Assembly (NCBI RefSeq): GCF_025244665.1
Contig: NZ_CP104205.1
Span: forward strand, 3,655,001-3,719,000
Reading direction: 5' to 3'
From: Maribacter litopenaei
Lineage (GTDB): Bacteria > Bacteroidota > Bacteroidia > Flavobacteriales > Flavobacteriaceae
Length of the DNA stretch: 64,000 nt
Position numbers and translations under genes: made by a program. Every line of letters begins with the position of its first letter. Positions within the stretch are counted from its first letter, which is position 1. This document shows, piece after piece, positions 854 through 63,624 of the stretch. The notes beneath the pieces are model-generated. The model was not told the DNA's origin and searched no databases. It was given only the letters and a program-made list of their open reading frames with translations.

Positions 854-2651
854 ATGAATAACATTAGAAATTTTTGCATAATTGCCCATATTGATCATGG
901 TAAAAGTACCTTGGCCGACAGGCTTTTGGATTTTACGGGTTCCGTCACCGAAAGGGAAAAAAAGGAACAGCTGTTGGATAATATGGACTTGGAGCGTGAG
1001 CGAGGTATTACCATAAAAAGCCATGCCATACAAATGGATTATGTTTACAACGGTGAAAAATATGTCCTAAATCTTATTGACACCCCTGGGCATGTTGATT
1101 TCTCTTATGAAGTTTCGCGATCCATCGCAGCTTGTGAAGGTGCGTTATTGGTAGTCGACGCCGCACAAAGCATACAGGCTCAGACCATATCCAACTTATA
1201 TCTAGCTCTTGAAAATGACTTAGAGATCATTCCGGTGCTAAATAAGGTGGACTTGCCCAGCGCAAACCCCGAGGAGGTTACGGACGATATTGTAGATCTT
1301 TTGGGGTGTGATGCAGAGGATGTTATCCCGGCCAGTGCCAAAACGGGTATTGGGATTGAGGAAATCTTAAAGGCCATCATTGAGCGAATCCCCGCGCCTA
1401 AAGGAAATCCGGATGAGCCCTTACAGGCTTTGGTCTTTGATTCCGTATACAATCCTTTTCGAGGTGTGGAAACTTATTTTAGGGTTGTCAATGGAAGTAT
1501 CCGAAAAAATCAAAAAATAAAATTCGTCGCCACGGGCAAAAGTTATGACGCCGATGAAATTGGCACCCTTAAGTTAACACAACATCCAAAACCGATGATA
1601 GGTGCGGGTGATGTGGGGTATTTGATCACAGGCATAAAAGATGCGCGAGAAGTAAAAGTAGGAGACACCATTACGGATGCCGCGGTCCCGACCAAAAATG
1701 CGATTGCGGGATTTGAGGATGTAAAGCCCATGGTTTTCGCGGGTATCTATCCCGTCGACACGGAGGACTTTGAGGAATTACGGTCTTCCATGGAAAAGTT
1801 ACAACTAAACGACGCCTCGCTGGTATTTACTCCGGAGAGTAGTGCCGCCTTGGGCTTTGGTTTTAGATGTGGATTTTTGGGAATGCTCCATATGGAAATC
1901 ATTCAAGAGCGTCTCGGAGCGTGAGTTTGATATGACTGTGATAACTACGGTACCTAACGTAAGTTATCACGCTTATACACGTAAAGACCCGGAGACCGCG
2001 ATCATTGTAAACAACCCCAGTGACCTTCCGGACCCTTCAACCATAGATAGGGTCGAGGAACCATATATAAAGGCGACCATTATTACAAAAGCTGATTTTG
2101 TAGGGAACGTTATGTCCCTCTGTATTGAAAAGAGAGGACAGATTACCAATCAGACCTATTTGACGACCGAAAGGGTGGAGCTGAACTTTGACATGCCTTT
2201 GGCAGAAATTGTATTCGACTTTTATGATCGCTTAAAAACGGTTTCCAAAGGCTATGCCTCCTTCGATTATGCCCCTATTGGAATGCGTGCATCCAAACTG
2301 GTTCGTGTGGATATTTTATTAAATGCCCAGCCTGTAGATGCATTATCCGCTTTAATACATTTTGATAATGCCGCCAACATTGGTAAAAAAATGTGCGAGA
2401 AGTTAAAAGAGCTCATCCCAAGACAACAATTCGATATTCCTATTCAGGCCGCCATCGGTTCCAAGATTATCTCGAGGGAAACCATTAAGGCCCTTCGTAA
2501 AGACGTAACGGCCAAATGTTATGGTGGGGATATTTCTAGGAAAAGAAAGTTGCTTGAAAAGCAGAAAAAAGGTAAAAAACGTATGCGTCAAGTTGGGAAT
2601 GTAGAAATACCGCAACAGGCGTTTATGGCAGTTTTAAAGCTCAACGATTAG
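854..2651 (+). CDS. lepA: Elongation factor 4 (LepA), one frameshift
   Basis: Ribosome-associated GTPase that back-translocates stalled ribosomes. The start at 854 gives the family N-terminus [19 protein letters not shown] (P-loop). DTPGH (G3) and NKVDLP (G4) follow, then the LepA-specific C-terminal domain with the basic tail [16 protein letters not shown]. The frame breaks at 1912-1917 (TCTCGG). Removing one base joins QERL to [15 protein letters not shown] and yields 598 residues, the normal LepA length. A TATATTTG sequence at 785-792 matches the Bacteroidetes -7 promoter consensus, but no well-spaced -33 element is evident. Confidence 0.95.
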
Positions 2652-2665
2652 GGGATCCGATTTCT

Positions 2666-4532
2666 CTACTTTGAAGCAGCCTTTGCCTCTTCGTTTTTCT
2701 GTTCTTCCTCAATGGGCAGCATCTTACCCAAATATACCAATTTGGAGTCCTCTTTTATGTCCGTAAAGTCCTTACTGAATGCGGAAATTATCTTAATGTC
2801 TCCGTCAGGTGTTTTAAGGAATAAAGGAATGATGTCTGTATCCGCCTTGGTGATTTCGATAAGCCCTTCATAATGTTCGGTGTCCTTGAGCTCTATCTCT
2901 CTGATAATCGGATTTTTTCTCGGCCGTTTCAGTTAATTTAATAAAATCGTCCGTATGGGAGAACAATCCTTCCTTTGGGTTATTTTCCGGGTCATTCATT
3001 TCCTCAGAATCCACAAGTCGGAAAGACCCATTTTCACCAAATTCCCCTTTAAATTTATCTATGGCATATTTGTTAATATCAGAGTTTCCTGTCAAGGCCA
3101 TAAGATAGCCTACATCATTTAGTTCAATATAGTCTCCCAAGGAATCCGAATAAATATTAGCACTGAAAGCCTCTAATCCCGCTTTTCGCGCCTTGGCTAC
3201 ATTGGTCTCGTTGTTATCCACCAATACAACATGTCTGTTGTTCTTTTGTAGATACTCCGCTATAAGCCTTGAGACTCGGGACGCGCCTATTACCAATATA
3301 CCTTCGGACTTTTTTAGGAACACCCCAACCAATTTGGCAAATAACCTAGCCGTAGTTGCATTCAAAAGCACCGTTCCCAACACAATCATGAATACCAACG
3401 GCGTTATATATTCTGCGCCTGGTTCCCCTTTTGCAAGCAGTTTGGAGCCAAACAAAGAAGCAATACCGGCGGCCACAATACCCCTAGGGCCTACCCAACT
3501 AACAAAAAGCTTTTCGTTTAACTTAAGGTTTGACCCCATAGCACTTAAAAAGACGCCTAAGGGCCTTATAATAAAAACAATGGATGCGAACAAAATTGCT
3601 GTCTTCCAATTATAGATCAGTTCTAGATCTGAAATATTGATGTTAGCGGCCAAAAGAATAAAAAGAATGGAAATCAAAAGTACACTTAGCGATTCCTTGA
3701 AGTAAAGAAGTTCCTTGATATTGGGTAAGTCAATATTGCCCATGACCATCCCCATGACAACCACGGCCAATAGACCAGATTCGTGCGCGAACAAATCGGA
3801 CTCCACAAAAACAAGCAGTACCACGGAAAGAGAAACCACGTTCAAAAGGTAATGCGGGATGAAATTCTTCTTTATGGCAAATGCCAAACCATGGGCGAAA
3901 GTGAAGCCAAAGGTAAAGCCAAATAGCAATATCTTTCCGAATTCCACCAAGGCAGTTAATGTATAGGCCTGTCCCTCTCCAACACTAATAAATTCAAACA
4001 CCAAAACAGCAGCCAGCGCGCCAATGGGATCGATCAATATGCCCTCCCATTTCAAAATTGCACTTACATCCTTTTTTAGGGGTATGTTTCTTAAAATAGG
4101 GGTTATTACCGTTGAATCCGTAACTATTATGAGGGAGGAAAACAGAAAGGAAACCTGCCAACTAAGGTCAAATATGAAATGGGCCGCCAAAGCACCTACG
4201 AAAAAGGTTACCAAACTTCCCAAAGTAATAAGTTTTGTAATAACGGGGCCCGTATTCCTTATTTCAGAACGCTTAAGGGTTAAACCGCCTTCAAATAAAA
4301 TAATACTTATGGCCAAGGATACAAAATAGTAAAGGCCTTCCCCAGGAAAAAGTCCCTTTTCACCATTCCACATAGGTTCTATAAGTTTGGAACCATCCTG
4401 AGTATATAGTGTGGATAATGGCCCCACAAGTAATCCAATTAAAATCAATGGAAGTATAGCGGGCAGTTTAAACCGCCAGGCTACCCATTGGGCAATTATT
4501 CCAAGAATGATAATACCGGCCAGTTCTAGCAT
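2666..4532 (-). CDS. Sodium(potassium)/proton antiporter, CPA1 type with TrkA-N domain, one frameshift
   Basis: Inner-membrane monovalent cation/proton antiporter. About 12 hydrophobic segments (residues 1-400) form a Na_H_exchanger domain, including SSLIIVTDSTVITPIL and VGPRGIVAAGIAS. A cytosolic Rossmann (RCK-N) domain starting ILVIGASRVSRLIAEYL (about 410) and a short C-terminal TrkA-C-like part follow. The last about 80 residues are in another frame. The break is at 2918-2923 (TCTCGG on the plus strand). Restoring CCGGA gives TETAGKNPIIREIELKD and carries on to a stop at 2666, 15 bp from the convergent lepA stop. Repaired length about 621 residues. Exact ion specificity cannot be read. 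Confidence 0.87.
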
Positions 4533-4898
4533 GGAATAGTTTTTTGCTAAAAATAAGAATTAAACAGCAGTTGTTAACATTAAGAACTCGAATAACTTTT
4601 TTGCCTACAATTTAGATGTAGACTTTGATTTGATTCTTTTTTAATCATTATTCAGGGTACTTACACCTAAGAGGAACTTTTAAGGTTTCCTAACCGCATA
4701 TAATAAAATTGTGGGTTTTACCTACATTTATTGATTAAAAATACCTATATGGTAAATGCTTTTATATTTTTGCTTAGGTTTCCCAAAGAAGATTTCGATT
4801 ATTTATACCGCCAAGCACTTCTTCGGTAAATATAATTTGCAAAACTTATGTATGGAGCTCCCAACAGAAAATGGAGCAAAACTAGAATTTGAAAGGTC
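4533..4898. other. Divergent intergenic region
   Basis: This is 366 bp of AT-rich DNA between the divergent antiporter and histidine kinase genes. It holds TATTTTTG at 4765-4772, which fits the Bacteroidetes -7 consensus TAnnTTTG and lies about 130 bp before the kinase start. I see no open frame, RNA or repeat. Confidence 0.4.
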
Positions 4899-7800
4899 AT
4901 GAGAAACCCTTTAGGAAACAAAACATATAATCCTCCACTTTTTACTGGTTTACTAGTGTTTCTATTGGTATTTGCTATTACAACTTTCGTAACCTACCAG
5001 CGATATCTTATCCAAAAAAGCTCGGAAAAAGACGAGATAAGAAGACAGGCAGAACGGGTAGACAATGAAATGAAAAGTGTTCTAGAGCAAGGCTTTTCTA
5101 GCACCCAAAGTATAGCCTTTTTAGTGGAGAACTATGGTGTCCCGGAGGACTTTACCAAAATATCCCAGTTAATACTAAAGACAAACACAAATGTTGATGC
5201 CCTAGAACTTGTGGATGGTGCAGGGGTTATTACACATGTGTATCCTTTGGAAGGAAATGAAGTTTTGGGCTTCAATATTTTAAGGGATTCCATTGGTAAA
5301 CCCGGCGCAATAAAAACCATTGAAAAAGGTGAATACTTCATTACTGGTCCAATCGATTTGAAGCAAGGTGGATCCGGATTTGTTTGCAGAACTCCCATTT
5401 ACAATGACAAAGAGTTTGCAGGATTTGCGGCGGCTGTTATTAAATTAAGTTCCTTATTGTCCAAAATTCCCATGGATACCTTGGACAATGGCGATTTTTC
5501 ATATCAACTTTCAAAAGTAAATCCTGATGGGTCTGAGGAGATGTTTCTTTCCCCCCAAAAAAAAACTTCCGAGAGAATGCCCTTAAGCACACTATTTCCG
5601 ATTACAATGGGGAATGGAAACTCTATGTGATTTCTAATAAAAAAAATGCCCTTTACGGATTATTTGTAATGGGAATATTGGGGCTTTTTTTAGCCGGTCT
5701 TGCTGGTTTCTTTACATATTTTATCATGAAGCAGCCAAAAAAGCTTCAGAAAATGGTAAATGAAAAAACGCTTTTACTAAAAGAAAGTGAGCAAAAGTTT
5801 AGGACCTTGATAGAACAGGCCTCCGATGGTATTTTTTTGGCAGATTTTAAAGGTAATGTTCTTGATGCCAATCTCGCTGGGGTAAAAATGTTTCGATATT
5901 CTAAAGAAGAATTACTGGAAAAAAACTTAAGGGACTTGGCGACAAAAGAAGATTTAAATAAGACCCCTATTAGGTTTCCGAATTAAAACAAGGTGAGGCC
6001 GTACTAACAGAACGAAAACTTTTGAAAAAAAACGGCTCTCCCTTTTATGGCGAAGTTAGCGCCAAAAAGCTGAATGATGGTAATATTTTAGGTATTGTGA
6101 GGGACGTGACCGCAAGGAAAAAATTGGAACTTGCTGCATGGGACAACCTCCAAAAGTTCCGGAAAGCATTTAACAGCCGCACTATTGGCATGGCAATTTT
6201 TGACGAAAAACTTCGGTTCGTTGATGTAAACCCTTATTTCTTGGAAAAATTAGGATATTCACTTCAAGAAGTGAAAGGAAAAACATTTGAGGAGCTTGGA
6301 CCTATTATAATTGATGAAAAGTTAAAAAGAAAGGAAGCGCTAAAGGGTTTAAACGAGCATGGGAAAGTACTTTCCATGGAGCTTATTGTGCGACCAAACG
6401 GAAAAGAAAAAATACACTTTTCAACCTCAGCGGAATCCTATGTGGTAGACAACAAAAATTACATATTAGCAACTTACCTTGATAGAACGGAAGAAAAAAA
6501 GGCACAAGAAAAAATTATTTCCAGTGAAAAAAAATACAGGGAATTAACGGAACGCATCTCCGATGCTTTCGTGGCTTTTGACAAAAATTGGGACTTTACA
6601 TATGTGAACAATAAAGCCTCTAAAATTATCGGAAGGGATTCCATTGGTTTGGTAGGAAAAAACCTTTGGGAAGAATTTCCTCAGTTTGCCCAAACGGAAG
6701 CTTACGACACTTTTAAAAGCGCTCTAGAAAACCAAAAATATGTTCAATTTGAACAGTTCCATAAACCCTATGATGTTTGGATAGAAAACCACATTTACCC
6801 TTCTCCGGAAGGGCTAACAATTTATTTTAGGGACATTACCAAAAAGAAGGTTGCCGAGCAAGAAAACCGGAAATTGCTCACAGTTGTTGAGAACAGTCCA
6901 GGCTTCATAGGTCTCTCAAGGATGGATAGCAATTCTATTTATTTAAACCAATATGGACGTAAATTGGTGGGTCTACCTCCTGAAGGTTCTATTTCCGATA
7001 TTTCTTGGTTTGATTTCTTTCCTGAAAACACTGTTGAGCTAATTAAAGATGAATACCTTCCTATTGTATTGAAAGAAGGTACTTGGAGTGGTGAAGCATA
7101 TCTAAAAAACTTTGAGACAAATACATATGTTCCCACGGCATTCTCTGCATTTACAATAAACGATAAAGTTTCCAAAGAACCTATTGGAATTGGTTCCGTG
7201 GCATTCGATTTGACTGAAAGGAAAAAAGTTGAAAAAGAGATTTTAGATCTTCAGTCTAAAATGAATGCCGCCATTAGAATAGGTAAAATTGGATATTGGG
7301 ATTGGCACATTGAATCAGGTATTATAGATTGGTCTGAGCGTATGTATGAAATTTATGATGTGGAGCATGGGCGTGAAATCAATGTTGCGTTTACGAAGAC
7401 ACTAGTGCACCCGGAAGATTTGGAAATGCACGATAAAACAATAGAACATAAAACCAAAAACAGGGACGATTCATCTTTCACATATCGAATTGTTGACAGG
7501 AACGAAAACATAAAACATGTATTAGTACAAATGGAGGTAAAAGTGGATCTGGATGGTAACCCAATCAACTATCAAGGTACGGCCATTGATATTACCCAGG
7601 AAAAAGAAGCAGAGGTATTACTAGAAAGACAAAACCAAGAGCTTAAAAAGACCAATTCTGAACTGGACAGTTTTGTGTATAGCGCCTCTCACGAATTAAG
7701 GGCTCCCTTGGCTTCACTTCTCGGTTTGGTGAATATTATGAAAAAAGAAAAGAGGAGCGATGATAGTCTCTTAAACTTACGGATGATGGAGAACTCCATA

Positions 7801-8331: not shown

Positions 8332-8343
8332 ATAGAGAAAAAA

Positions 8344-9773: not shown

Positions 9774-11404
9774 ATGATACGTACAATCACTAAATCGTTC
9801 TTGATATTTTCTTTTGTCGCCCTTATTGGCTGCGGTGGCTCCGGAGGTCTTATATTAACTCCCGTTGAAAACATTGACTCGGTACCCTTAAAGATTTCAG
9901 ATCTAACCGATGCGGAAAAGAAAAATTGGGGGCATTTAGACCTTGCAGCAGATACCATCCCAGGAATGAGCGTTGATAAAGCTTATGATGAAATTATAAA
10001 AAACAAGAAGGGGAAAAAGGTAATCGTAGCAGTTCTTGACTCGGGAATCGATTTGGACCATGAGGATTTAGATGGGGTTATTTGGACCAATACAGACGAA
10101 AAACCGGGTAACAACAAGGATGATGACAATAATGGTTATGTTGATGATATTCATGGGTACAACTTTCTTGGGGAGTCTTATAATGAGCAACTTGAATATG
10201 TACGCATGTTACGATTGAACATTGGCGATCAGGCTACTTTGGCAAAGGCAAGGGCAAAACTGGATGAGGAGTACACTTCAGCAGAGCAAAATAAAATGAG
10301 ATATGAACAAATATTACAAGCAGTTAAAAGTGCGGATGCGGAGGTCAAGGAGTATTTGGGCAAAGAGTCCTATACAAAAGAGGATGTTACCGGCATAGAG
10401 GCTACAACGGAAGCCATGCAGAGAAATAAATCTGTACTACTTCAAATGTATAGTTTTAAAGAGTCCATTCCGAAGTAATCGAAGAATTGGGTGATGGTAT
10501 TACATATTTCACAGAACAACTAAATTACAACCTCAACAAGGATTTCAACGGTCGTGAATTGGTGGGTGACGACCCTTACAATTACAGCGATACAGATTAC
10601 GGAAATGGCAACCCAAACAATAGGGTAGATGACGAAAGCCATGGTACCCATGTTGCGGGAATCATTGCAGCAGAAAGAAATAATGGTCTTGGGGCCAATG
10701 GGGTTGCCAATAACGTAGAAATTATGAGTATTAGGGCGGTTCCTAATGGTGATGAATATGATAAGGACGTTGCCCGAGGAATTCGATATGCCGTAGACAA
10801 TGGAGCAAAAATCATCAATGGAAGCTTTGGAAAATCTTTTTCTCCAAATGCACAATGGGTGTACGACGCCATAAAATATGCTGCTGACAATGATGTATTG
10901 TTTGTACATGCAGCAGGAAACGATGGTGCCAACTTGGATGATCCCTCCAACCCAAATTTTCCAAATGACCAAGTAAATAATGGGGCGGAGTTTGCGGATA
11001 ATGTCATTACCGTGGGGGCATTGGATCCTAACTATGGGTCGGAAATGGTAGCCTCCTACTCTAACTATGGAAAAATAAATGTAGATGTTTTCGCACCGGG
11101 TACAGATATTTATTCTACCTACCCCAACAATGAATACGAATTTTCCCCAGGAACATCCATGGCGGCTCCGGCCGTATCCGGGGTAGCCGCCTTAATTTTG
11201 TCCCAGTATCCCAATTTAAGCGCCAAGCAGGTTAAAAAAATAATTCTTAACTCCGGATTACCAATTAAGACAAAGGTAATCTTGGGGGGAGACAACACTA
11301 AAAATGCCAGCTTAGGCGAAATATCCACTTCCGGTAAAATAGTAAATGCCTATAATGCCCTAATTATGGCAAGTAAGGTAAGTAACGGTCAATTGCAACT
11401 ATAA
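9774..11404 (+). CDS. S8 subtilisin-family serine peptidase, lipoprotein, one frameshift
   Basis: Exported subtilase. A lipoprotein signal (FSFVALIGCGG, lipobox Cys about 20) implies membrane anchoring. The catalytic triad is complete: Asp in VAVLDSGID (about 90), His in SHGTHVAGI (about 290) and Ser in PGTSMAAPAVSG (about 465). A roughly 140-residue insert between Asp and His is helical and charged, as in other Bacteroidetes S8 lipoproteins. The break is at 10469-10472; restoring CCGGA joins ESIPEVIEELGDG. Repaired length 543. The M1 peptidase starts 17 bp later, so the two probably share a transcript. Confidence 0.9.
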
Positions 11405-13698: not shown

Positions 13699-15313
13699 AA
13701 GAGTTATTCTTCCCGTTCCGCCCTAACTTTTCTTGTAGTTGGAAGTAGCTTTAAAAGTGATTTTTTTGAGATCGCAAAACAAATTGAGATTTTCACAACG
13801 CTTTTCAAGGAACTCAACATGAACTATGTGGACGAAACCAACCCTGCGGAGTTGATGGACACGGCCATTAAAAACATGTTGGAAGATTTGGACCCTTACA
13901 CCAAGTTTTTAAATGAACAGGATGTAGAATCATATCGCATTAATAATGCAGGCGAATATTCGGGATCGGGGCACTTGTGAGAACGTATAAGGACAGATTG
14001 TTGATTATTGAACCCCATCAAGGATATCCTGCGGACAAGGCCGGGTTAAAGGCCGGAGATCAAATTATCCAGATCGGGGATATCAAGGTTGCCGATTTTG
14101 AGGACAATGCAAGCGAACTTCTAAAGGGTTCCGAGGGGTCTACCGTCGATATCATTTACAAAAGACAAGGCAAAATTAGCAGCACTACCATAGAGCGTGG
14201 GGGAATTGAAGTGGATGCGGTTCCTTTTTACAAAATGATAGATGACAAGACAGGTTATATTGTATTGTCAAAATTCAATGCCAAGGCTACTGAACAAACA
14301 AAAAGTGCGCTTCCGGATTTAAAGGGGAATGGTGCCGAAAAAATAGTGCTGGATTTACGCGACAATCCGGGAGGTCTTCTCTCCGAAGCCATTAATATTA
14401 CCAATTTATTTGTCCCAAAAGGAGAATTGGTGGTTACCACAAAATCGAAAGTAAAAAAATTCAATAGAGAATATAGGACCACCAATCAACCCATAGATAC
14501 CGAAATTCCTTTGGTTGTATTGGTCAACGGCAGTAGTGCCTCCGCCAGTGAAATTGTTTCGGGTAGCCTACAGGACTTAGATAGGGCGGTGATTATGGGA
14601 GCCCGTAGTTTTGGAAAGGGGTTGGTTCAGAGGCCTTTAAAATTAACCTACGGAACGCAATTAAAGGTTACCATTTCTAGGTACTATACCTCCTCTGGTC
14701 GCTGTATTCAAGCCTTGGATTACTGGAACCGCGATGACAATGGCAATGCTATTAGAAATACCCAGTTCAATGATTTCACTACCAGTAAATGGCAGAAAGG
14801 TTCAAGATGGGGGTGGTGTATTACCGGATGTCGAGATTGCCGCGGTAAAAACCAACGACCTTACAATGGCGTTGCTTCAAAATAATGTCATTTTCGATTA
14901 TGCCACCGACTATTACTTTAGAAACAGCCTGAACGATGTAAAAGATTTTAAGTTTACCAATTCCGATTTCAACAACTTTAAGGCATTCGTTAGGGAAAGT
15001 AACTTTTCCTTTGAGACCAAAGCGGAAAAAGCAATTACCGAAGCCCTTTCAGGACCCGAAAACGATTTCTTAGGGCAAGAGGTCAAGGATAGTTACAAAA
15101 CACTGTTGGCCAATATTCAAAAAGGCAAAATCAATGCTTTGGATAAATATCAGAATGAAATCCGAGAAAAACTTGGAGGACGAAATTGTAAAGCGCTACT
15201 TTTATCGTGACGGACTTTATCAATATTATTTGTCCAATGATGATGCCATCTTGGCCGCCGCTGAACTTTTGGATAATAGTTCAAAATATAATGGTATTCT
15301 CGGTAAAAGATAG
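13679..15313 (+). CDS. S41 C-terminal processing peptidase, four frameshifts
   Basis: Tail-specific (CtpA-like) protease, 544 residues after repair. Uncleaved signal or anchor (MKKLMRKRVILPVPALTFLVVGSS), N-terminal helical part, PDZ (YPADKAGLKAGDQIIQIGD) and catalytic core. Ser lies in NGSSASASEIVSGSLQD and Lys in SFGKGLVQ; LDLRDNPGG is the conserved structural motif. Breaks: 13717-13720, 13960-13963, 14782-14787 and 15162-15167; each is repaired by restoring CCGG. It starts inside rnpA (20-bp overlap; a second ATG at 13691 is possible). Its stop at 15311-15313 touches the convergent DUF1080 gene. Confidence 0.9.
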
Positions 15314-16218
15314 TTAGTTGTAATGGCAACTGTCCGGGTCTCGGTTCTACATAAAATTTCCGGTAGTTTGCCGCTTTTGGATCCATACAACCTTTTAGGT
15401 TCCTAATTTGTATGTTCCTAAAATCAATGGGCTGCCCTTCACTTTGTAGTGCAATAAACCCTTCTTTTAAAGGTGTTCCTGGCTTAAAAACAGTAGGGTC
15501 ATAACCATTAACAACTCCACCGCCCATTTGCGGTTTTGTATATTCCAATACGGTTTTGCCATTTATAATATGTTTTACCAATGAATCCCCATAGACAATA
15601 AGTTCCGCTGTTACCCATTGATCTCCAAAATAGGTTTCAGAAGTTGAATTAACGCAGTGGTTCGGGTCCAATTTACCCATGTAAACAATATCCGTTCCTG
15701 GGGAGCACATGTTGCCTGTCGGTCTTTCCTTTCCTTCCTCCATCCCGGCCAAGAATTGCATTTCCACGGAAATAGGCCAGTCCTGTTCTTTAAGAATAGT
15801 TCTTGGGTCTTGGGAATGAAACATGACCCCACTGTTTAACATGGTGTAGTCTCGGAGCACCCGGAAAAAGTTCCCCCACAAAACGATATTCCATGGACAA
15901 ATGAAAATAGGAATACGGCTGGTCATAATACAAATGACCGAACCGGTCGTTGAACAACCCTTCATATTGGTCGTATCTGACTTTTATTATGCTATCCTCC
16001 ACCCTAAAAGTCTCTCCATAATTATTAAAGACATCGTAATGGTGGATTTTGGTGATCCAACCCTCTAAATCGCTTCCGTTGAACATTGAGGTCCAACCTT
16101 CATCTATAGTTTTTTGGGAGATTGCGCTGGTATATGCGGCAAACATAATGACCAAGAACAACTTTGCTAGCCAGCTTTTTGAAAATTTAAATAGGGCGAT
16201 TTTTTGTGATATTTTCAT
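15314..16218 (-). CDS. DUF1080 / 3-keto-disaccharide hydrolase-type exported protein, two frameshifts
   Basis: Exported beta-sandwich protein of the DUF1080 family, some members of which act on 3-keto-glycosides. Signal peptide (LFLVIMFAAYTSAISQ), then WTSMFNGSDLEGW, the family entry motif, and SGVMFHSQDP. C-terminal LKGCMDPKAANY and, after repair, VEPDPDSCHYN. Breaks: 15850-15855 (restores GAPDYTMLNSG) and 15339-15344 (CCGAGA to CCGGA). The second repair puts the stop at 15314, directly against the S41 stop. Last gene of a three-gene minus-strand cluster with LmbE and acetyltransferase genes. Substrate unknown. Confidence 0.82.
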
Positions 16219-20267: not shown

Positions 20268-22390
20268 ATGAAGTCCCTCAAAATAAGTGGCCTTTTGCTT
20301 CTAACATTGTGCAGCGGTTCCTGTAAAACCGATATAGTGAAAGTTCCATCCAAAAAAGATTTTACTACGTGGTCTTCTTATCTTGGCGATGCCGGAAGAA
20401 CCCATTTTTCCACATTATCCCGGATAAACAAAGAAAATGTTCAAAATCTAAAAGTGGCCTGGGCGTATGAGTCGGAAGATTGGGGGCAGATGCAGATGAA
20501 TCCTATTGTGGTAGATTCCATACTTTATGGAGTAACGGCCGCACTGCGCGTGGTAGCACTTCATGTCGAGACGGGTGAAGAGCTTTGGCAATTTGGAGAT
20601 TCCGTTAAAGTTTGGCATTCTACGAGCAGAGGTGTTTCGTATTGGTCAAAAAATGAAGACCATAGAATCTTATGCACCCGAGGTGCCTATTTATTCGCTT
20701 TGGATGCTCAGACAGGCGAGCCCATTCCCTCTTTTGGCTCCGGTGGAAAAGTGGATTTGCGTTCGGAATGCCTGAGAGTGCGAAGAATAAATTCGTCATT
20801 TCCAATACCCCTGGCACCGTCTTTAAGGATTTAATCGTTATGCCACTTCGGGTATCGGAAGGAGCGGGCGCTGCCCCGGGAGACATCATAGCCTTTAACG
20901 TCATAACCGGAGAACTGGCGTGGTCTTTTCACACCATACCTCATCCCGGTGAATATGGATATGAAACGTGGGAAGATTCCACAAGCTACAATAACCCAAT
21001 TGTAGGTGCGGCGAATAACTGGGCCGGCATGGCCGTTGACGAGGAAGCTGAAATTATTTTTGTTCCAACAGGCTCAGCCGCTCCGGATTTTTATGGCGGT
21101 GTTAGACGCGGTCAAAACCTATTTTCAAATTCGCTCTTGGCCTTAAATGCAAACACAGGGGAGCGTATATGGCACTTTCAATTTACCCATCACGATATTT
21201 GGGATCGAGATCCGCCAGCACCACCAAACCTTTTGATGGTTGAAAGGGATGGTAAAAAAATTCCCGCCGTGGCCCAAGTGACGAAACAAGGTTATGTTTT
21301 TGTGTTTAATCGATTGACAGGAGAACCCTTGTTTGATATTAAAGAAGTACCAGTGCCTACATCAGTACTGGAAGGGGAAGAGACTTGGCCCACCCAGCCG
21401 ATTCCCGTAAGTCCAAAACCCTTTGCAAGGCAATCCCAGGACCTAACCGAATCCAATATTAGTCCCTTTGCCGAAAACAGGGATGAGTTAATTTCTCTAT
21501 TCAAGGCATCCAACAAAGCACAATATGCCCCGCCAAATACCGAACCCGTTTTGTTGTTACCAGGGTACGATGGGGCAGCGGAATGGGGCGGGGCCTCAGT
21601 GAACCCCGATGACGGAATTCTATACGTGAACTCCAATGAGATGGCCTGGACACTTTTGATGAACCAAAATACTGGAGAATCCTACGATGGCCCTTTAGGA
21701 GAAGCCACCTATCAAAAATTTTGCGTTACCTGCCATCAATCTGATAGAACGGGAAATATGGCAAGTGGGTATCCCAGTTTGATAGACTTGCAACTCCGAA
21801 AAAACAAAAACGAAGTGGCGGAGATAATTACTAATGGCAAAGGCATGATGACCGGCTTTCCCCAACTTTCAAAAAAGGAAATGGATGCCCTGCTTGCCTT
21901 TCTATTCGATGAGGAAATAAAACATTCCGTTGCTTTGGAAAACGTACCCCAAGATACTATTCAAGAATTGTACAAGCATGCCGGGTATACCAAGTTTTTG
22001 GATAGCAATGGTTTACCCGGTATATCACCTCCTTGGGGTACGATGCATGCCATCGATTTGAATACGGGGAACTTTAAATGGTCCATTCCCTTTGGCAATA
22101 CTCCGGAATTGGGGGAAGAAGGAATAGGAACCGGAACGGAAAATTATGGTGGTGCCGTGGTGACCGAAAATGGATTGCTGTTCATAGCCGCTACGCGTGA
22201 TGGCTTTTTTAGGGCCTACGATAAAGAAAATGGATTGCTGCTTTGGGAATATGAATTGCCCGCGCCTGCTTTTGCTACACCTGCCATGTATGAATTTAAT
22301 GGAAAGCAGTATATTGCCATCGCTTGTGGCGGGGAGAAACTAGGCACTAAAAAGGGGAATCAAATAATTGCCTTTGCCTTAAACCCGTAG
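20268..22390 (+). CDS. PQQ-dependent (quinoprotein glucose-type) dehydrogenase with inserted cytochrome c, lipoprotein, one frameshift
   Basis: Periplasmic quinoprotein dehydrogenase. Lipoprotein signal LLLLTLCSGSC, then an eight-bladed-propeller domain (WAYESEDWG, HHDIWDRD, GAAEWGGASVNPD). A cytochrome c module is inserted near residue 485 with CVTCH heme site and later distal Met (KGMMTGFP), and the last propeller blades follow. Such internal-heme architecture suggests direct electron transfer from PQQ to a periplasmic carrier. The break at 20763-20766 repairs as TCCGG (LRSGMPESAKNK); final length about 707. Substrate (sugar or alcohol) unresolved. Confidence 0.87.
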
Positions 22391-26749: not shown

Positions 26750-26935
26750 GTGTTTTTTTGTAAAAGTAATTAATTCTCAGGGCATGCCCGTGAGACATTC
26801 GTTGGAAACAAATTTATAATTTCGAGGCAATCCTTGAGCTATTAAACCCTTAAGAGCTTCTAATAAAGAATCTGCTCTTTAATTACTTAAAATAGTACTT
26901 GGATCTCATTATATAATTTGGCTACATTCGTATTG

Positions 26936-28162: not shown

Positions 28163-28171
28163 ATCCTTGTT

Positions 28172-28780
28172 TTGAAGAGTAGTTTTACATCGGATCTGAA
28201 GAAAGAAAAAAAACTCTCTATCCTTTTGGATTCATATTATTTAAACTGTTTAAAACAATATGATTTTGAACGGGTTCAAAATATACAGGAACAACTTCAG
28301 GGCATTGATGTCATATTTAAACATAAGACGACCCGAAAAACCTTTCTCATAGACGAAAAAGCACAATTGGATTATATCAATGAGGACCTACCCACTTTTG
28401 CCTTTGAGCTCCATTATATAAAAAATGGTCAATTAAAGGACGGATGGCTTTTTGATGCCTCCAAAAAAACCGATTTCTATGCCTTGGTCACAGCGATTTA
28501 CGAAGACGAACCTGATAAGTTTACCTCCTGTAAAATCATATTTGTTAATAGAAACAAATTGAAGGATTTCTTGTCCGCGAGAGGTATTACCAAACAACTA
28601 TTATTGAAACATTATCAAAAAGAATCGCTACCACATGGTAAACTGGAACTGAAGGAATTGAAATCAAAAACTGAAGGTTATTTGTACCATTCCAAGGACA
28701 ACAAAGCAGAACGACCTTTCAATTTAATATTACGATTAGAATGGCTTCTCTCCAATCACATTGCCAAAAAATTAATATAG
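28172..28780 (+). CDS. Putative type II restriction endonuclease (PD-(D/E)XK)
   Basis: 202-residue protein 9 bp after the methyltransferase, TTG start, frame intact. I see a nuclease-like core: GIDVIF (Asp46) followed by FLIDEKAQ (Asp61-Glu62-Lys63) on a predicted strand, matching PD-(D/E)XK geometry, and a helix LDYINEDLPTFAFEL. The remainder (LKDFLSARGITKQLL and beyond) is unfamiliar. Position and size fit the restriction half of a type II system; specificity and family are unknown. Confidence 0.7.
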   Translation: MKSSFTSDLKKEKKLSILLDSYYLNCLKQYDFERVQNIQEQLQGIDVIFKHKTTRKTFLIDEKAQLDYINEDLPTFAFELHYIKNGQLKDGWLFDASKKTDFYALVTAIYEDEPDKFTSCKIIFVNRNKLKDFLSARGITKQLLLKHYQKESLPHGKLELKELKSKTEGYLYHSKDNKAERPFNLILRLEWLLSNHIAKKLI

Positions 28781-40645: not shown

Positions 40646-43600
40646 TGTCCTTGAAATACTCTTTAACCAAATTCTGAAAATTTTGGCGCAAAGGTAAGGC
40701 TTGTCTATTTAAAATTTCTATCTCGTTACGATAATTCTCTAGTAATGAGGGCTTGGTAATAATAGGATTAGTGAAGTCTTTTTTATTGCTATTACTTTCT
40801 CTCTCTGTTTTTTTGCCCTGTTTTAATGTAGCATTCTCCAGTTTCAACAATTCATATTGAATGGTGTTGGCCTTGCTGAGGGTGCGTTCTGTTATACCGT
40901 TTTCAAGAAGATCATTCTGAAAGTCCTCCATTTGGCGCAAGAGTTTTTCCCCAAGATTTCTATCACCTTCGTTGATTAAATTCTGTAATTGTTGTTCCAA
41001 TTCTTGTTTTATCTTTTGTTGCTCTTGATAGATTTCATAGATTTCTTGCAGTTCGGATTCACTCAAACCTCCCTGTCCTTGTGAACCATTCCCGTCTCCT
41101 TGTTTTCCGTTAGGACCTCCTTCTCCTTCTCCGGATTGCCCACCTTCACCTTGACTATTTCCTTTATTGCCTTGTTTTCCTTGTAATTCATTCTCTCCAT
41201 CGTTACCCTCTCCACTGTTGGGAGTTCCTTGGCTTCCGTTTTGTCCTTTTTGTTGTTCTCCTTGTTGCCCCGATTGTCCCTGACTGCCTGACTCTCCCAT
41301 TTTTTCTCCCAGGGACTGTTGTTTTTTAATGATATCCGGCAATTGAAAACCTTCCTGGCTTTGACCACTTCTCTGCCCCATTTGCATACTTTGTTGCATG
41401 TTCTCAAGAACATGGGCAAGAAAATCAGCTAAACTATTGGAAGCGGTGAGCACATATTTTTGATAGGATACTCCTTGGTATATTTGTCCTTCGGCAACAC
41501 TTTCCAGGGATTTGTCAATGTTGTAATATACCTCGGTAATTTGTTCATTTACAAATTCTGAAAGTTCGGCCTGTCTCAAGGATAGGGCAAACAAACTGTC
41601 ATCCACATGTTCAAAAAGGCTTCTCAATTCCTTTTGATTTTTTACAGTCTCAGAATAATGGGAGATATCTTCCCTGTCCTGAACACTAAGTTTATCATAT
41701 AAACTTTCTTGTTTAAAAGAGAAAATGATAAGGTTGTCCAATATTTGCCGTAGCATTTCAGCATCTTCTGCAGCTGACGAGCCACTTGAGCCACCACTTA
41801 TAGAAGATTTGCTCAATTCTTCGCTCATTTCCTTCATCTTTTGCGCTGCGGACTTTTGGTTTTGCCTTGTTTTATTTGCATTTTCCTCCATCCCTTGGCT
41901 ATCCGAGCTTTGTTCTGCCCCTTGGTGCTTTCTTATTTCTTCCAGCGCGTTGCTTTGATTTTGTTTTACTCCCTCCTCCTTATTCTTGTCAATAGTTAAA
42001 TCAACAGGTTTCTTTAGTTCGGCATTATCCTTTTTGAGGTTTTCGAGTTCCTTGGCGATATCGTCAAAATCATTGTTTAGCTTTTCCTGCTCCTTTTCTG
42101 AAAAGTCTTTCCCAATAAATAAATCAGAAAGGATTTCTTGTCTTTCTGATAGTTTTTCTAGGTCATTTGCCAATTGTGCGGCCTTTTCGGTGACGTAATA
42201 ACGTTTGGTAAGTTCAACGAGCTGTTCAAGGTTTCGTTCGGAGTTTTGTTGTTTCTTTCCTAATTCTTCTAAACGCTTCGCCAATTCTTCCTTATTTATT
42301 TTATCGGCAATTTTATTGAGCTCTTCTAGCAGTTTTTGGTTCTTTTTGGCCTCAATTTCTTGGCGCTCCAATCGCTCCTGTAAAAGTTGGTTCAGTTTAT
42401 CGTCTTTCGTGCCTTTTTCAAGATTGTCCTTCAGTTCTTTGCTGAACTTTTCCATTAATTGTTCCTGGCGCTCCTGTTTTTCAAGAAAATCCTTTACTTG
42501 GTTTTTATCATTGAAGTCCAACTGGTTTTTTTCTTTCTGTAGTGCATTGATTTCTTTGAGGGTTTCCCTTTGCTCTGCTGCCTTCTCTAGGGATTTGTCT
42601 AGGTTGTTGATTAGTGACTGTTGAGACTCTAACTCTTTGTTTTTCAATTGATTAACGTCTAATATGTTCTGACTGAAAACAGAGCTTTTTACCGATTTAC
42701 CACCATGAATGGCATCATTGTCGGTGATTCTAAAGTAAAACGCATAAGTTTTTCCCTCCTCTAAATTGAGACCGAGATGGAAAAGTGTAGTAGAAGTTAT
42801 GAAAATTGGTGTTTGGAGCGTTCAGTTCAAGAATCCTTTCGTTTTCCTCGTTTCCTTGTTCGTAATAGACCAAATCAATCTTTTTAATACCATAATCATC
42901 TGTGGCCTCTCCCGTATAATAGGAAACATTGGGTTCCAACGAGTCCAAAACCTGCTCTACTTTAACCGTCGGAAACGCGTCCTTAATCACTTGAAAAGAA
43001 TAATTTAGGGTCTCATAATCTCGAACGTTATCATTTGAAGTGGCCAATTGGTAGTCCCAGTTGGAATATATCCTCCGGGAAAGACTAAAATCATCTTGGC
43101 TTCTATCCAAGAGCAAGGCAGTATCCTTCGTCACCAGTTTGATTTCTTGGGTGTCCTGCCCTTTTATTTCCCAAGTAACCCTTGTTCCTTACGGAATGAT
43201 TGCGTTACCAGTACTTTTTATTACCTCGCTACGCTTATTTATGTAGTTTGGAAACTCCAAACGCATATTAAAATCAGAAATGGCAGGGGCTTTTAAGGCG
43301 ATCAGTTCATATTCACGGGATTGTATCCCATTACCTTTAAAAACAAAGCGACCCGAAGATATGGGAGGCGATAGGGTATATTGATAAATGCCATTTTCTT
43401 CTTGTAGCAGTATCTCCTTTCCCTCTAATTCTACATAGACATTTTCAGGTTTTACAGTGCCCACTGTTGAAACTTGAAAAGTAAACGGATCACTTTCAAT
43501 TACCTTTAATTGAGGGTTCATTAACTCAAACCGAAAAGGTGCAGGCGGTTCATAGGCAAGATTATAATTGACTACTCGAGTATAACTACCAAAAAAGGAA

Positions 43601-47629: not shown

Positions 47630-48907
47630 TCAATTAAGTGTTTTTTTCAACACATTCAAATCCCCGTCGATGTCTTTGGGAATTTCCAGCCCCAATATTT
47701 CACACACTAAGGGATATATATGGATGTTTTTAAATGAACCTATTTCATAATCGCTTTTAAAACTAGGCCCATTGGCATAGAAAATTCCATGCATCTCCTT
47801 TTGCCTTGGATCATAGCCATGGACTCCGAAGGGTGTTTTCGATTTTGAAATGACCTTGTCGATCTTTTCTTGTTTCGCAAAATAATAGCCAAAATCGGGA
47901 ATGACCTGGATTTCTCCCCAATCGGGGTTTTACGGGGTATATTCAAACCCAGGCGTTTCGGTGGTTTTGTAGACTTTAAAATGATTTTCCTTTTGTTTCA
48001 AATTCAGGAGAATAGAGTCTTCTTTGAGGTTATTATTTAAATGGATATTTAAAATGGCCCCATTATCCACCACTGTGTAAAGCGAATCATTCAAGATAGG
48101 GTCAACAGGAATATACCGTTCTTTGGGCACATTTGCCATACCATGGTCGGATACGATTATAATATCCACAGATAACTTGGTGGCTTGAACACCTTCATAC
48201 AGGGCTTTAAGATTTTGATCCAAGGCCATCAAGGTTCTTTTGAGCTCCGCACCCCCATTTGGTCCAAATCGATGGCCTACATCATCCATGTCGGAAAAAT
48301 ACATGGTAATTAGATGGGGTCTTTTGGTTTCCGGCAAAGAAAGCCATTGAAGCACCTCTGAGACCCTCTCCTCGTTTTTCACGGACGCATCGTACTTTTT
48401 GTAGTACGAAGGCCGGATACCTTGGATATTCGCTTCTGACCCCACAAAAAAATAACTGGCCGACAGCATTCCTGATTTTGCCGCCTGTATCCACAGGGGT
48501 GTGCCGTTATAAAATGTACCATCTTCCACAAACTCCCTATTCCCAATACGATAGGTCCGGTCTTTCTTATGGCTGTAAAAGGAATTTCCAACAATCCCGT
48601 GCTTATCAGGGTACATTCCTGTGGCGATGGTGTAATGGTTTGGAAAGGTTTTGGAAGGAAAAGACGGAATTAAGGACGAGGCCTTTACCCCGTTTTGAAT
48701 GAAACTTTTCAAAAAAGGAGGGTTGAATCGTTCCACATAGTCCCATCTGAAACCATCCAGGGAAACGAGAATTACATAGGGTTTGTCTAAAGATTCTCTT
48801 GAATTCTTAACGGGAGGATAAACGGTGCCAATACTGCTTTTACATGAAGAAATCAGTACTAAAAAGAGATTTAGTAAAAGCCAGCAAGCCTTGTTTCTTA
48901 GGGACAT
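47630..48907 (-). CDS. Ectonucleotide pyrophosphatase/phosphodiesterase-type lipoprotein, one in-frame stop
   Basis: Alkaline-phosphatase-superfamily hydrolase. Lipoprotein signal (LLNLFLVLISSC), first Asp in VSLDGFRWDYV, Thr nucleophile in PSKTFPNHYTI, metal residues in FSDMDDVGHRFGP and IIVSDHGM, as in NPP enzymes. In-frame TAA at 47930-47932 (CCG TAA AAC) ends the apparent protein at 325. The frame continues to GYDPRQKEMHGIFYANGPSF and a real TGA at 47630, giving 425 residues. CCG GAA would restore it. Periplasmic cleavage of nucleotide or other phosphodiesters is likely. Confidence 0.87.
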
Positions 48908-49869: not shown

Positions 49870-50504
49870 TCAAATATACTTATGGGAACCATCGCATGAG
49901 GGCATTTTTTTGGATTGTCCACAGACACAATCATGAAAACCCTTTCCATCGAAAATACGGGATTTATATTTTTCAATTCTCGATGTTCTTGTTGCTGATT
50001 GCTTCGCGCCTGAAAAATAAAGTAAATATCCTTTTTGTCGACCTGGAGTAAGCTTTTCAAATGCAGTTTTGAGGTCCGAATCTTCTTCAAAGGCTCTTTG
50101 TAGTTCTTCGGGAAAATCCATTTCTTCCGGCATGCTGTATTCAACTTTTAACCCTGATTTTTCTATTTCAATAGCCTCAAAAATATAGGCCTTAATGACA
50201 GGCGTCAACCGGATGATTTCCTTTGTATCCGTAAATGGAGCCACACGGGCCGATTGTGTGTTTTCCCCTTGTTGTTTTAAAATACCGTTATCATCCTTTA
50301 ACAGGCTTCCCTTAAAAAAACCAAGGCAGCAAAAATTTTTAAAGGGCCGAGAAGTGCGATATTCTTGCCCTTATGGGTATAACATGGATTGCGCCATTTG
50401 AATTCTTCTTCCAACCCACAATCAAGCAGTATTTTTCGAAGCTCGGTTAGTTCTTCGTGCCAGTTTTTTTGTCTTAAAAGAAAATCGGAGACTTTAGGAT
50501 TCAT
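49870..50504 (-). CDS. YdeI-like/DUF1801 protein with C-terminal CDGSH iron-sulfur motif, one frameshift
   Basis: About 211 residues. N-terminal DUF1801 part (CGLEEEFKWRNPCYTHKGKNIALLG) and YdeI part (LTPGRQKGYLLYFSGAKQSATRTSRIEKY). The C-terminus then reads DCVCGQSKKMPSCDGSH: Cys-x-Cys, seven residues, Pro-x-Cys-Asp-Gly-Ser-His, the complete 2Fe-2S ligand set of CDGSH proteins. The break near 50314-50320 is a T-run shortened by one (restores LVFFKGSLLKDD). It is the only lesion I could not place at a CCGG site. Function unknown. Confidence 0.8.
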
Positions 50505-55291: not shown

Positions 55292-55324
55292 GTTTTTAGT
55301 GGTTTAGTTGGTTATCAGGAGAAA

Positions 55325-56176: not shown

Positions 56177-57119
56177 ATGGGAAATTTTATTTTAATACCG
56201 ATAGTAATTATTTTAGGGCTTTTACTTCTGTCCTTTGTATTTATCGTAAAGCAGCAAACCGCGGCGGTTATAGAGACTTTTGGAAGGTTTAGCAGCATAC
56301 GTCATTCACGGACTTCAGTTTAAGATTCCGTTTGTTCAAAGAATTGCGGGAAGATTGAGTTTAAAAATCCAACAATTGGATGTTATCATCGAAACCAAGA
56401 CCTTGGATGATGTATTTGTAAGATTGAAGGTGTCCGTGCAGTATATGGTCATTAAGGATAAGGTATATGATGCATTCTATAAACTGGACTATCCCCATGA
56501 GCAAATTACATCATATGTTTTTGATGTAGTTCGAGCAGAGGTTCCTAAAATGAAATTGGACGATGTCTTTGTAAAAAAGGACGACATAGCCTTAGCTGTC
56601 AAGGCAGAACTAAATGACGCTATGTTGGAGTATGGGTTTGATATCATAAAGACTCTTGTTACGGACATTGATCCAGATCCACAAGTAAAGGCTGCGATGA
56701 ACCGTATCAATGCATCGGAAAGGGAGAAAATCGCCGCCCAGTTTGAAGGTGATGCTGCTCGTATCCTTATTGTTGAAAAGGCAAAGGCAGAAGCGGAAAG
56801 CAAAAGGCTACAAGGGCAGGGTATTGCAGATCAGCGTCGTGAGATTGCCCGTGGCTTGGAGGAGTCCGTTGAGGTTTTGAACAAAGTGGGTATCAACTCC
56901 CAAGAAGCTTCGGCCTTGATTGTGGTGACGCAGCACTATGATACGTTGCAAAGTATAGGTGAAGAAACGAACACCAATTTAATTTTGTTGCCAAATTCGC
57001 CTCAAGCAGGCAGTGATATGCTAAACAATATGGTGGCTTCTTTTACGGCAAGTAACATGATAGGCGAGCAAATGAAGAAGAATCAGGGAACAAAACCCGA
57101 TGAAAAAGGAAGAGCCTAA
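56177..57119 (+). CDS. SPFH/Band 7 membrane protein (stomatin-like), one frameshift
   Basis: About 313 residues. N-terminal membrane anchor (LIPIVIILGLLLLSFVFIV), SPFH domain (KTLDDVFVRLKVSVQYMV, LVTDIDPDPQVKAAMNRI) and coiled-coil tail rich in Ala/Glu/Lys (EKAKAEAESKRLQGQGIADQRR). Break at 56306-56311 (TCACGG) repairs to TCCGG, restoring RHSGLQFKIPFVQRI. Likely organises membrane microdomains or assists proteolysis. Confidence 0.9.
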
Positions 57120-57141
57120 GATTAGATACTTTTCAATACTA

Positions 57142-57183
57142 AAATCAAAAGGCGCGATATTGAACTATCGCGCCTTTTGATTT
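57142..57183. terminator. Bidirectional rho-independent terminator
   Basis: An 18-bp perfect stem (AAATCAAAAGGCGCGATA with its complement) and loop TTGAAC, flanked by A and T runs, between the convergent SPFH and glnS genes. Confidence 0.93.
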
Positions 57184-57229
57184 ATAAACAGATAATAATC
57201 AATATTCAACATTAATATACCTTTTGGTT

Positions 57230-58919: not shown

Positions 58920-59141
58920 GGTATGATTTTTCAAGCTACAAAAGTAGCAAAATTGCCGAAAAACCTAAGATTAAAATAGGCTCACCCTGTATAAAATGCA
59001 TTTCACAACAATTTTAATCTTTGCCACAACAATAAATTCCCTACGCGCGTTATTAGAGTCATATTTGTTTTGAGTACCAAAGGTTTAAGGTGAACGACCT
59101 ACAACATCACTATCATTTGGGGCACAAAACTACACATCACT

Positions 59142-61390: not shown

Positions 61391-61398
61391 AACCAAAC

Positions 61399-63624
61399 AT
61401 GCTACCTAAAAAACGTATACTGCTTTTATTTGTACTTCTTGCCCTTGGGTTTACAAAGACCCAAGCGCAGGAAGACAATCCTTATTTTGGGTACGAGGTA
61501 CCTTCCCAAAACTTGTTAAAATATAATCGGTTTTTAATCAACCCTACCTTTTCAACGGTTAGGGAGGACAAATCGTACATTAACCTTCTGCACAGAAACC
61601 AAGCGGTACAATTTGATGACAATAACCAGAATTATTTCTTAAGTTATAGTGGTAGAATTAGTGACCGTACGGGGTTGGGATTAAGTTTGTATACCCAGCG
61701 TTTAGGGGCATTAAGTAATTATGGAGTCTTGGCAAATTATGCCTATGGAGTAAAATTGAGCGAAAAAAGTAATTTTACTTTTGGAGCTAATTTATCCTAT
61801 TACAATAGCGGTTTTGATGAAGGAAGGGCCACTACTGTGGAACAAGATCCTTTCTTGGCCGGATTCCAAGACCGAGAACCTATTATCGTTTCAACCTGGT
61901 TTCAACCTTTCTTATGGTAATTTCGACATTGGTGCTTTCGCTGAAAACCTTTTTGACTATAATTTAAAGACCAGTGAATCGCTAACGGATTTCAGTAATA
62001 AAACATACTCCGGACACCTACAATATACCCATCAGTTTAAAAATACCTCGGGATTTTGGAAGCAGGACGTTTGATGCCTTTGGCTAGGGTACGAATGGAT
62101 GGTGAGGATGATAACCTGACCTTGGGTGGAAGTCTAATTTTAGATCTTCCCAAAATAGGATGGATTCAAGGAGGGTATGACAGTTTTTATGGTGCCGCTG
62201 CGGGGGTGGGCTTTAACCTGAACCAAAGGATTTCGCTAGGCTATACAATGGAGAAAGGGCTAACTAACAACTTCGATAACTTTGGTCTTACACATGAAAT
62301 ATCATTCGCCTATTCCTTTACGCCAAACCTAACTGAAGATAGGGTAATGCTTGAGGATGACAATTTTGATGACTTGGTGGAGAATAATATCGAACCGGAG
62401 AATATCGCTACCAATGAGGAAATTGAGGAGCTGAAAAGAAAGTTGGCCGAAAACGATGCTATTATAGAAGAGTTAATGTTTCGTCAGGATTCACTGGAAT
62501 CTAACAGACAGGCGGATTTAGAGCGTAGGTTCAATATGGTTATGCGAATGATCCGGAACGAGACCGATGGGCAACGACCAGATTTGGAGAAAAGAGCTGA
62601 GGAAATTTTTAAGGGAGATGATTCTGATATGAAATTGGCATCGGCCAGGAATACGGAAAATGAAAGGGTTCAAGATAACCCAAATACCAATCAGAATAAT
62701 ATCCAAAAGGATGCATTGGTAACCAACACTAAACCATCTAGGAATATCAATGAAACCAATGTTCCTGAGTCATCTCCAAAAGAAAGCATAACTGTTGCTC
62801 CGGATGCGATTTCAAATAATGTAGCTTCAGCTGAGAATAACGCTGAGAAAAGCATTATTAAGGAAGATGCCAAGAGAGACGTTCTTGCCTATAATCCACC
62901 TAAAAGAAACTCTGTAAAACAAGAGCAGGAGAAACCTGTGGTTCAGGACAGGGTAAAAAGTAGAAAATTCAATGACCTGCCAAATGTTACCGATGGCTAC
63001 TATGTAGTGGCCAATGTATACAAGGGCGGTCAATACCTAGATAAGTTTTTGAATACCTTGGAATCTAGGGGAATTAATGCCAATTACATTGACAATCCCA
63101 ACAACGGCTTAAAATATGTATACCTTGAACGATACGATTCTTGGGAAGAAGCCGTAGCTGCTCATGACACTAATTTTAACGGAGCATATGAAGGCAACAC
63201 ATGGATAATGAACGTGGAGAACAGATATTCCAATGAGGCCTATGTAAACAATGTAAATAAGCTAAGGGAAAAATCCTCGAAATATGATACGGACGTACTT
63301 CAAAAAAATGTAGTGGAGCAGGATAAAGTGGCTTCTAATAATACGGAACCCAAAAATTACGAGATTGATGGTATTGGGTCCGGATATTATATTATTGCAA
63401 ACGTATTTGCAAACCCTAAAAATGCCAATAGATTTGTGGCCCTATTAAACTCCTATGGTCTTAGTGCCAGTTATTTCATCAACCCGTAAAATAATTGGAG
63501 ATACGTATACCTAAAAAGACATGATTCTTGGACAAACGCATTAATTTCTTATTACTCCAAGATAAATGATGCCTACGATGAAAAAATGTGGATTATGAGG
63601 GTATCACCAGGACAAATGGCATAA
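61399..63624 (+). CDS. PorP/SprF-family type IX outer-membrane protein with C-terminal SPOR-like repeats, three lesions
   Basis: About 741 residues. Signal (LLLFVLLALGFTKTQA), PorP/SprF barrel (LINPTFSTVREDKSYINLLHRNQ to ISFAYSFTP, about 1-315), a charged linker with coiled coil (LKRKLAENDAIIEEL). Two SPOR-like repeats follow, beginning TDGYYVVANVYKGGQYLDKFL and GSGYYIIANVFANPKNANRFV. Lesions: 61872-61877, 62048-62051, and in-frame TAA at 63487-63489 (CCG TAA AAT). The frame after the TAA continues NNWRYVYLKRHDSW to a true stop at 63622. The second repeat is complete only if that TAA is an error. Confidence 0.85.

Follow-up and report, generated by a model that had tools for sequence, protein, structure and literature searches.

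In nanopore-only genomes of Listeria, the available text of the Modpolish paper reports 1533-5670 mismatches centred on GCTGG/CCAGC or GCAGC, which were largely gone after whole-genome amplification (e.g., 5670 reduced to 16) and for which lineage-specific modification systems were suggested as the source (PMC10687267). For the word CCAGA, the accessible portions of two reports describe an m5C (5-methylcytosine) target in N. meningitidis that was verified by digestion with MspJI (PMC7973814), and a CCAGR target found by MspJI and FspEI cleavage, of which a CCAGA enzyme was suggested to account for a part (PMC7046676). Here we describe a comparable pattern in Maribacter litopenaei, in a window of 64,000 nucleotides (positions 3655001-3719000 of contig NZ_CP104205.1, the 3,864,532-base single-contig genome of assembly GCF_025244665.1), where about half of the matched genes are broken and the pentanucleotide CCAGA, read as TCTGG from the complementary strand, is lost or altered. 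As in Listeria, apparent consensus errors recur on a strain-specific pentanucleotide; unlike Listeria, where mismatches predominate and indels are few (7-306), this marine member of the Flavobacteriaceae shows many indels, at the motif CCAGA (PMC10687267). The NEIS0771 system of N. meningitidis shares the CCAGA target and uses a cytosine-5 enzyme (PMC7973814, PMC7046676); in M. litopenaei the target is indicated indirectly, through the errors. Apparent pseudogenes arising from long-read assembly errors are the subject of the Kastor report, whose available text treats frameshifts and stops in general and gives no motif-specific cause (PMC12007338). In the literature on CCAGA as a methylation target, Neisseria was the sole genus that we found, and nothing relevant was found for nanopore errors at CCAGA. 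The probable artefact belongs to an established class; we have not found its word described for this group.

Gene breakage was counted with M. flavus open reading frames of at least 100 aa that matched over at least half of their length, all others being dropped. In the window, 24 of 41 matched genes were broken relative to M. flavus (30 frame changes and 26 in-frame stops), and 29 of 47 relative to a second relative, G007 (33 frame changes and 27 stops). These counts are near the roughly 45 disruptions in roughly 30 genes given by a preliminary description of this DNA, made from its letters alone. A stricter count of frame changes, with an added 60% identity cut, gave 21 of 41 genes in the window and 158 of 331 M. 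flavus-matched genes when the window was extended by the 400 kb upstream of it (464 kb in all). Separately sequenced relatives are almost free of such shifts: 1 of 44 genes from M. flavus to G007, none of 45 in the reverse direction, and 0/15, 0/17 and 0/10 in three named relatives. Past each shift, homology resumes in another frame; in lepA, for instance, the break falls between positions 354 and 355 of the TIGR01393 profile. Many of the 66 filtered one-base coding indels in the window are adjoining +1/-1 pairs that resemble alignment effects and not lesions. Completeness of the genome is 81.68% with 4.01% contamination, compared with 97-100% completeness in 10 of 12 listed genus mates. Maribacter species are among its nearest named relatives as judged by one protein of the window.

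The affected word is CCAGA/TCTGG, and the effect extends across the genome. The fate of each M. flavus 5-mer was scored over the 464 kb in alignments with anchored flanks, dropping sites with fewer than four of six matching bases on either flank. CCAGA was kept at only 29 of 587 M. flavus sites, the lowest retention of 512 5-mers, and carried an indel at 63 of the 587, the highest rate of all. For comparison, retention was 40% over all 5-mers, 85/346 for CCAGC and 103/323 for GCAGA. The 400 kb outside the window gave the same picture by themselves, with CCAGA first on both measures (26 of 520 sites kept, 60 of 520 with indels). Raw counts put CCAGA/TCTGG far ahead of all other depleted words, at 150 against 778 expected. 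Observed/expected ratios, corrected for trinucleotide content, were calculated for the 464 kb of M. litopenaei, for 480 kb of M. flavus (G005, very likely strain KCTC 42508) and, as a second composition control, for 403 kb pooled from other relatives, and are given in that order throughout; for CCAGA/TCTGG they were 0.21 against 0.97 and 0.87.

The sequences that stand in place of CCAGA are themselves informative. The 587 sites read CCGGA in 95 cases, CCAAA in 86, CCAGA itself in 29, CCTGA in 29, CCGAGA in 28, CCCGA in 27, CCGA in 13 and CCGTGA in 7. In the control comparison of M. flavus with G007, CCAGA was kept at 18 of 80 sites and turned into CCGGA at 4 of 80; these rates suggest that many true TCTGG words were probably misread as TCCGG without any shift of frame. 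Among isolated one-base insertions, 96 of 208 fell in CCGAGA/TCTCGG and 16 of 208 in CCGTGA/TCACGG. CCGAGA/TCTCGG, a lesion form already named in the preliminary description, is indeed 3.2-fold enriched (206 copies against 64 expected in the 464 kb). Across the whole genome, CCAGACC occurs 9 times, compared with 107-781 times in 35 genus mates, and CCAGAC 66 times, compared with 1083, 1090, 1182, 1185 and 1231 times in five other genomes. Conversely, the misread form AGTCTCGGA is present in 39 copies, against 0-10 in 20 genus mates. Extrapolated from the 464 kb sample, the number of misread CCAGA sites in the whole genome would be about four thousand.

The preliminary description had instead proposed that nearly all lesions are repaired by restoring CCGG, a rule that would make CCGG, perhaps with an HpaII-like mark, the misread word. 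Three lines of evidence led us to reject this motif, namely its abundance, its retention and the codon in lepA. The abundance of CCGG is not reduced (0.89 against 0.85 and 0.84) and its retention is ordinary (36%, 34th lowest of 136 4-mers); CCGGA is even in excess (1.16 against 0.98 and 0.92), and its retention, 261/767, is likewise ordinary when set against that of CCAGA. The lesion at position 1912 in lepA, correctly recognised but described as a weak fit to CCGG, lies where relatives encode Leu, a residue consistent with TCTGG but not with CCGG, so that the difficulty dissolves.

The choice of CCGG can nonetheless be understood from the window. Indels per site, counted against other words, put CCAGA first of all 5-mers in the 464 kb, but within the window alone CCGGA leads (11/90, highest of 481 5-mers) and CCAGA is only the fifth lowest in retention (3/67 kept); CCGG also has the second highest indel rate among 136 4-mers in the 464 kb (3.8% of 1080 sites, with 4.3% for CAGA). 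Within six bases of the 66 window indels, some relative holds CCAGA/TCTGG at 12 and CCGG at 13, where 4.2% and 6.8%, respectively, of 1500 sampled positions are the background; with values so nearly equal, the window by itself is unable to separate the two words. Window sites at which M. flavus and another relative share the word were kept in 2 of 15 cases for CCAGA and 19 of 38 for CCGGA. CCGGA sites of one species can be CCAGA in another: CCGGA became CCAGA at 10 of 108 sites (9.3%) in the control G007, and 21 CCAGA plus 50 indels make 71 of 767 (9.3%) in M. litopenaei. These matching rates indicate that the indels seen at CCGGA sites are explained by loss at CCAGA. This interchange brings CCGGA to the top of the window indels and led to the choice of CCGG; in addition, since the misreadings include TCTCGG, TCGG and TCCGG, the error itself generates part of the CCGG. 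That CCGG is the misread word is therefore very improbable.

The strings quoted in the preliminary description were present at the 16 coordinates checked. The lesion sites, and a methyltransferase gene considered below, are as follows in window coordinates.

1912-1917, plus strand: TCTCGG in lepA; relatives have ACT-TGA or ACT-GGA, with codon CTT or CTG (Leu); fits a misread TCTGG
2918-2923, plus strand: TCTCGG; TCTGG in both relatives
10469-10474, plus strand: TCCGAA, one base shorter than the TCCAGA of both relatives
14782-14787, plus strand: CCAGTA; CCAGGA in M. flavus and CAAGAA in G007, so that the fit to CCAGA is not certain
15162-15167, plus strand: CCGAGA; CCAGA in M. flavus
15850-15855, plus strand: TCTCGG; TCTGG in Maribacter sp. 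4G9 and TCCGG in three other relatives
20763-20766, plus strand: TCGG, one base shorter; TCCGG in M. flavus and TCAGG in three other relatives
26918-28162, plus strand: gene for a cytosine-5 DNA methyltransferase (PF00145) that is conserved across the family
29504-29509, plus strand: CCAGTA; CCAGA in both relatives that cover the site
34572-34580, plus strand: lesion in rnr; fits none of CCAGA, CCGG, GGWCC or a homopolymer
35780-35785, plus strand: TCACGG; TCTGG in one relative (L063) and TCAGG in M. flavus and G007
42772-42777, plus strand: CCGAGA (TCTCGG on the minus strand); CCAGA in M. flavus and CCGGA in G007
47930-47935, minus strand: CCGTAA form, in-frame stop; relatives diverged at the site
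50314-50320, plus strand: lesion in an A-run (homopolymer); fits neither CCAGA nor CCGG
56306-56311, plus strand: TCACGG; TCTGG in both relatives
61872-61877, plus strand: CCGAGA; CCAGA in M. flavus and CCAAA in G007
63484-63489, plus strand: CCGTAA form, in-frame stop; relatives diverged at the site

At 5977, 47930 and 63487 the relatives are too diverged for a motif to be assigned.

A second word, GGWCC (GGACC/GGTCC), was the next most depleted after CCAGA (0.46-0.47 against 0.75 and 0.75), whereas GGSCC was normal (0.83 against 0.80 and 0.81). Both words reappear in the ribosomal RNA (rRNA) genes. The two rRNA operons differ by 10 mismatches and one gap over 2852 aligned columns. At a CCAGA site in 16S rRNA, three operons of two relatives read GGACCAGACTCC, while one copy in M. 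litopenaei reads GGATCGAGACTCC and the other GGACTGAGACTCC; the remaining three 16S disagreements between the copies all fall at GGACC or GGTCC of the relatives. That the 16S copies differ only at these hot words is what errors would give. The operon comparison yielded 43 clusters of differences, of which 28 in poorly conserved or end regions were dropped. The other 15, in well-conserved surroundings, comprise one masked stretch, the four intercopy 16S sites and ten clusters in which the two copies agree, the pattern expected of ordinary divergence between species. Among the ten, a change from GGGTCC to GGGCCC overlaps a GGWCC word and may be an error or a species difference.

We consider it highly probable that the lesions are modification-mediated consensus errors at CCAGA in a long-read assembly; the platform, most likely nanopore, as well as the m5C mark and the CCAGA enzyme, we infer. 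CCAGA/TCTGG would be modified in the living cell by an accessory cytosine-5 methyltransferase of the strain, and the basecaller would misread the marked word consistently, turning its A (T on the other strand) into G, skipping it or adding an extra base. TCTGG would thus appear as TCTCGG, TCGG, TCACGG or TCCGG, with length-changing misreadings breaking frames and substitutions being silent or creating stops. A weaker second class of errors would arise at GGWCC, mostly where GGACC came out as GGATC. The lesions are real letters in the record but very likely not real mutations, and the genes themselves are probably undamaged. The preliminary description had favoured a fault of reading or consensus tied to particular sites, for instance a modified cytosine, over random homopolymer error or decay; that class of explanation stands, although the site it named does not.

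Several observations weigh against this account. CCGTGA/TCACGG, also among the lesion forms originally named, shows no overall excess in the 464 kb (109 against 115 expected). Within the window alone, CCAGA has fewer indels (3/67) than CCGGA. About a fifth of the expected CCAGA words survive, in a strongly flank-dependent manner (0.44 when A precedes and 0.08 when C does; 0.36 when T follows and 0.10-0.15 when another base does), which implies that either the reading or the marking is partial; such flank dependence could result from k-mer-based basecalling of a uniformly marked word, partial marking being the alternative. The rnr and A-run lesions, rightly singled out in the preliminary description as a poor fit and an exception, remain outside the pattern. 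Among GGWCC words, CGGACC is only mildly low genome-wide (682 copies against 738 of its reversed control), and its ratio is the lowest of 12 genomes searched (two of which resemble the same genome), but not by much; GGWCC is accordingly a weaker word than CCAGA. Finally, RGGNCCY, the EcoO109I word, was rejected as the exact second motif, as RGGWCCY is not depleted beyond the relatives. RGGWCCY is under-represented in the genome and its relatives alike (0.55, 0.56 and 0.61) and escapes the extra loss of GGWCC.

Explanations that take the letters at face value fare poorly. The lesions do stand in the deposited consensus of about half of the matched genes, as mass pseudogenisation or a mutator lineage would have it; yet they centre on one pentanucleotide, strike lepA, rnr and mnmG, and alter a conserved 16S site differently in its two copies. 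No mutator is known to us that converts TCTGG to TCTCGG on a large scale, and an organism living with frameshifts in half of its genes strikes us as implausible, so we regard genuine decay as extremely improbable. Depletion of CCAGA, taken alone, could stem from natural avoidance under restriction pressure, with the indels being unrelated. Avoidance would work through substitution, however, whereas the indel rate at CCAGA is the highest of all 5-mers, and in none of the 35 genus mates is the CCAGACC count this low; this combination is just as hard to credit as decay. Continued homology in another frame past the shifts might also be taken to mean that the cell reads through them by translational recoding. 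Recoding offers no explanation for changes in untranslated rRNA, where the same word is altered, and the relatives are nearly free of shifts; we give it practically no weight.

The preferred explanation, errors at modified words, calls for enzymes, and a genome-wide search with the PF00145 profile turned up three genes for cytosine-5 methyltransferases, one of them in two pieces; two of the three are accessory. No methyltransferase of the PF01555 (N6/N4) type was found in the genome by profile search, D12/Dam-type (PF02086) and rarer families not having been searched. The Eco57I family gave four places, of which the three examined were two type I HsdM proteins and one PrmC-like protein, and the fourth, at 412 kb, fell below the cut-off.

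The first accessory enzyme (A; 1952124-1953626, 501 aa) joins a helix-turn-helix (HTH) domain to a methylase and adjoins an HNH endonuclease gene, the pair spanning 1952124-1954719. It has no close homologue in the 35 genus mates, where the best matches reach 43-45% over the catalytic half. Its closest plasmid relatives, 55% identical, lie on Acinetobacter and Vitreoscilla plasmids; the two examined stand in operons with an AAA ATPase and a LlaJI-family endonuclease, one of them also with a very-short-patch-repair gene. The second accessory enzyme (B; 3175056-3176331) is itself split by a TCTCGG lesion, and among the 35 genus mates only Maribacter sp. 4G9 (G036) has a homologue (87%). Three plasmid relatives of enzyme B that were examined (57-61% identity) adjoin SinI-family endonucleases, whereas the neighbour of B itself is a truncated EcoO109I-family gene (PF14511, E 6.4e-47). 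The divergent EcoO109I-family endonuclease and SinI-like methyltransferase genes occupy about 3174150-3176330, and both are broken in the assembly.

The specificity of SinI is GGWCC and that of EcoO109I is RGGNCCY. Depletion of GGWCC but not GGSCC, found independently of the enzyme search, fits a SinI-like enzyme B. The SinI type accords with both the endonuclease neighbours of its kin and the depletion of GGWCC only, whereas the EcoO109I type accords with B's own neighbour but not with the absence of extra RGGWCCY depletion. The EcoO109I/SinI-type system at 3.175 Mb is the most likely modifier of GGWCC, and the HTH-fused enzyme beside the HNH endonuclease gene at 1.952 Mb would be that of CCAGA, an assignment that we make with modest confidence.

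An unlikely variant keeps the artefact but makes the modifier of CCAGA the window methyltransferase (26918-28162), or the mark something other than m5C. In its favour, the window gene encodes a complete cytosine-5 enzyme beside a likely PD-(D/E)XK nuclease gene. Against it, the enzyme is conserved family-wide: of the genomes from which the searched loci come, 18 carry a near full-length homologue with 66-88% identity. M. halichondriae Hal144 carries a 75% homologue, yet has a normal CCAGAC count of 1083; its available methods text lists Miniasm, Racon and Medaka alongside MinION R9.4.1 reads, and mentions neither Illumina nor PacBio (PMC10942906). We prefer enzyme A because of this nanopore-assembled genome, although the comparison is not decisive, as basecaller versions may differ. 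If enzyme A is responsible, the assembly errors may record a methylome: an active, strain-specific HTH-fused cytosine-5 methyltransferase with an HNH partner would mark the non-palindromic CCAGA outside Neisseria, or do so with a base unfamiliar to the basecaller. We offer this idea tentatively, as possible but short of probable.

Taken at face value, such a record suggests a genome that is 82% complete with half of its genes reduced to pseudogenes, and probably neither is true. Affected records mislead annotation, species delineation (16S is altered as well) and studies of pseudogenes. Such records can be recognised simply, from the assembly and one relative and without raw data, by looking for a word that is depleted while its misread forms are enriched; the word so found also indicates which motif is modified.

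The window methyltransferase and a 202-aa partner gene, at 26918-28780, are conserved as neighbours, and the partner is present in 11 searched genomes. The partner protein had no match in Pfam, NCBIfam or PADLOC. Ten aligned sequences share invariant D46 and D61-E62-K63, which fits a PD-(D/E)XK nuclease, and a Foldseek search with its predicted model returned I-Ssp6803I, BglI and SwaI among the matches, all of them weak (E > 0.01). From these residues and the predicted fold, the partner is possibly an undescribed restriction endonuclease.

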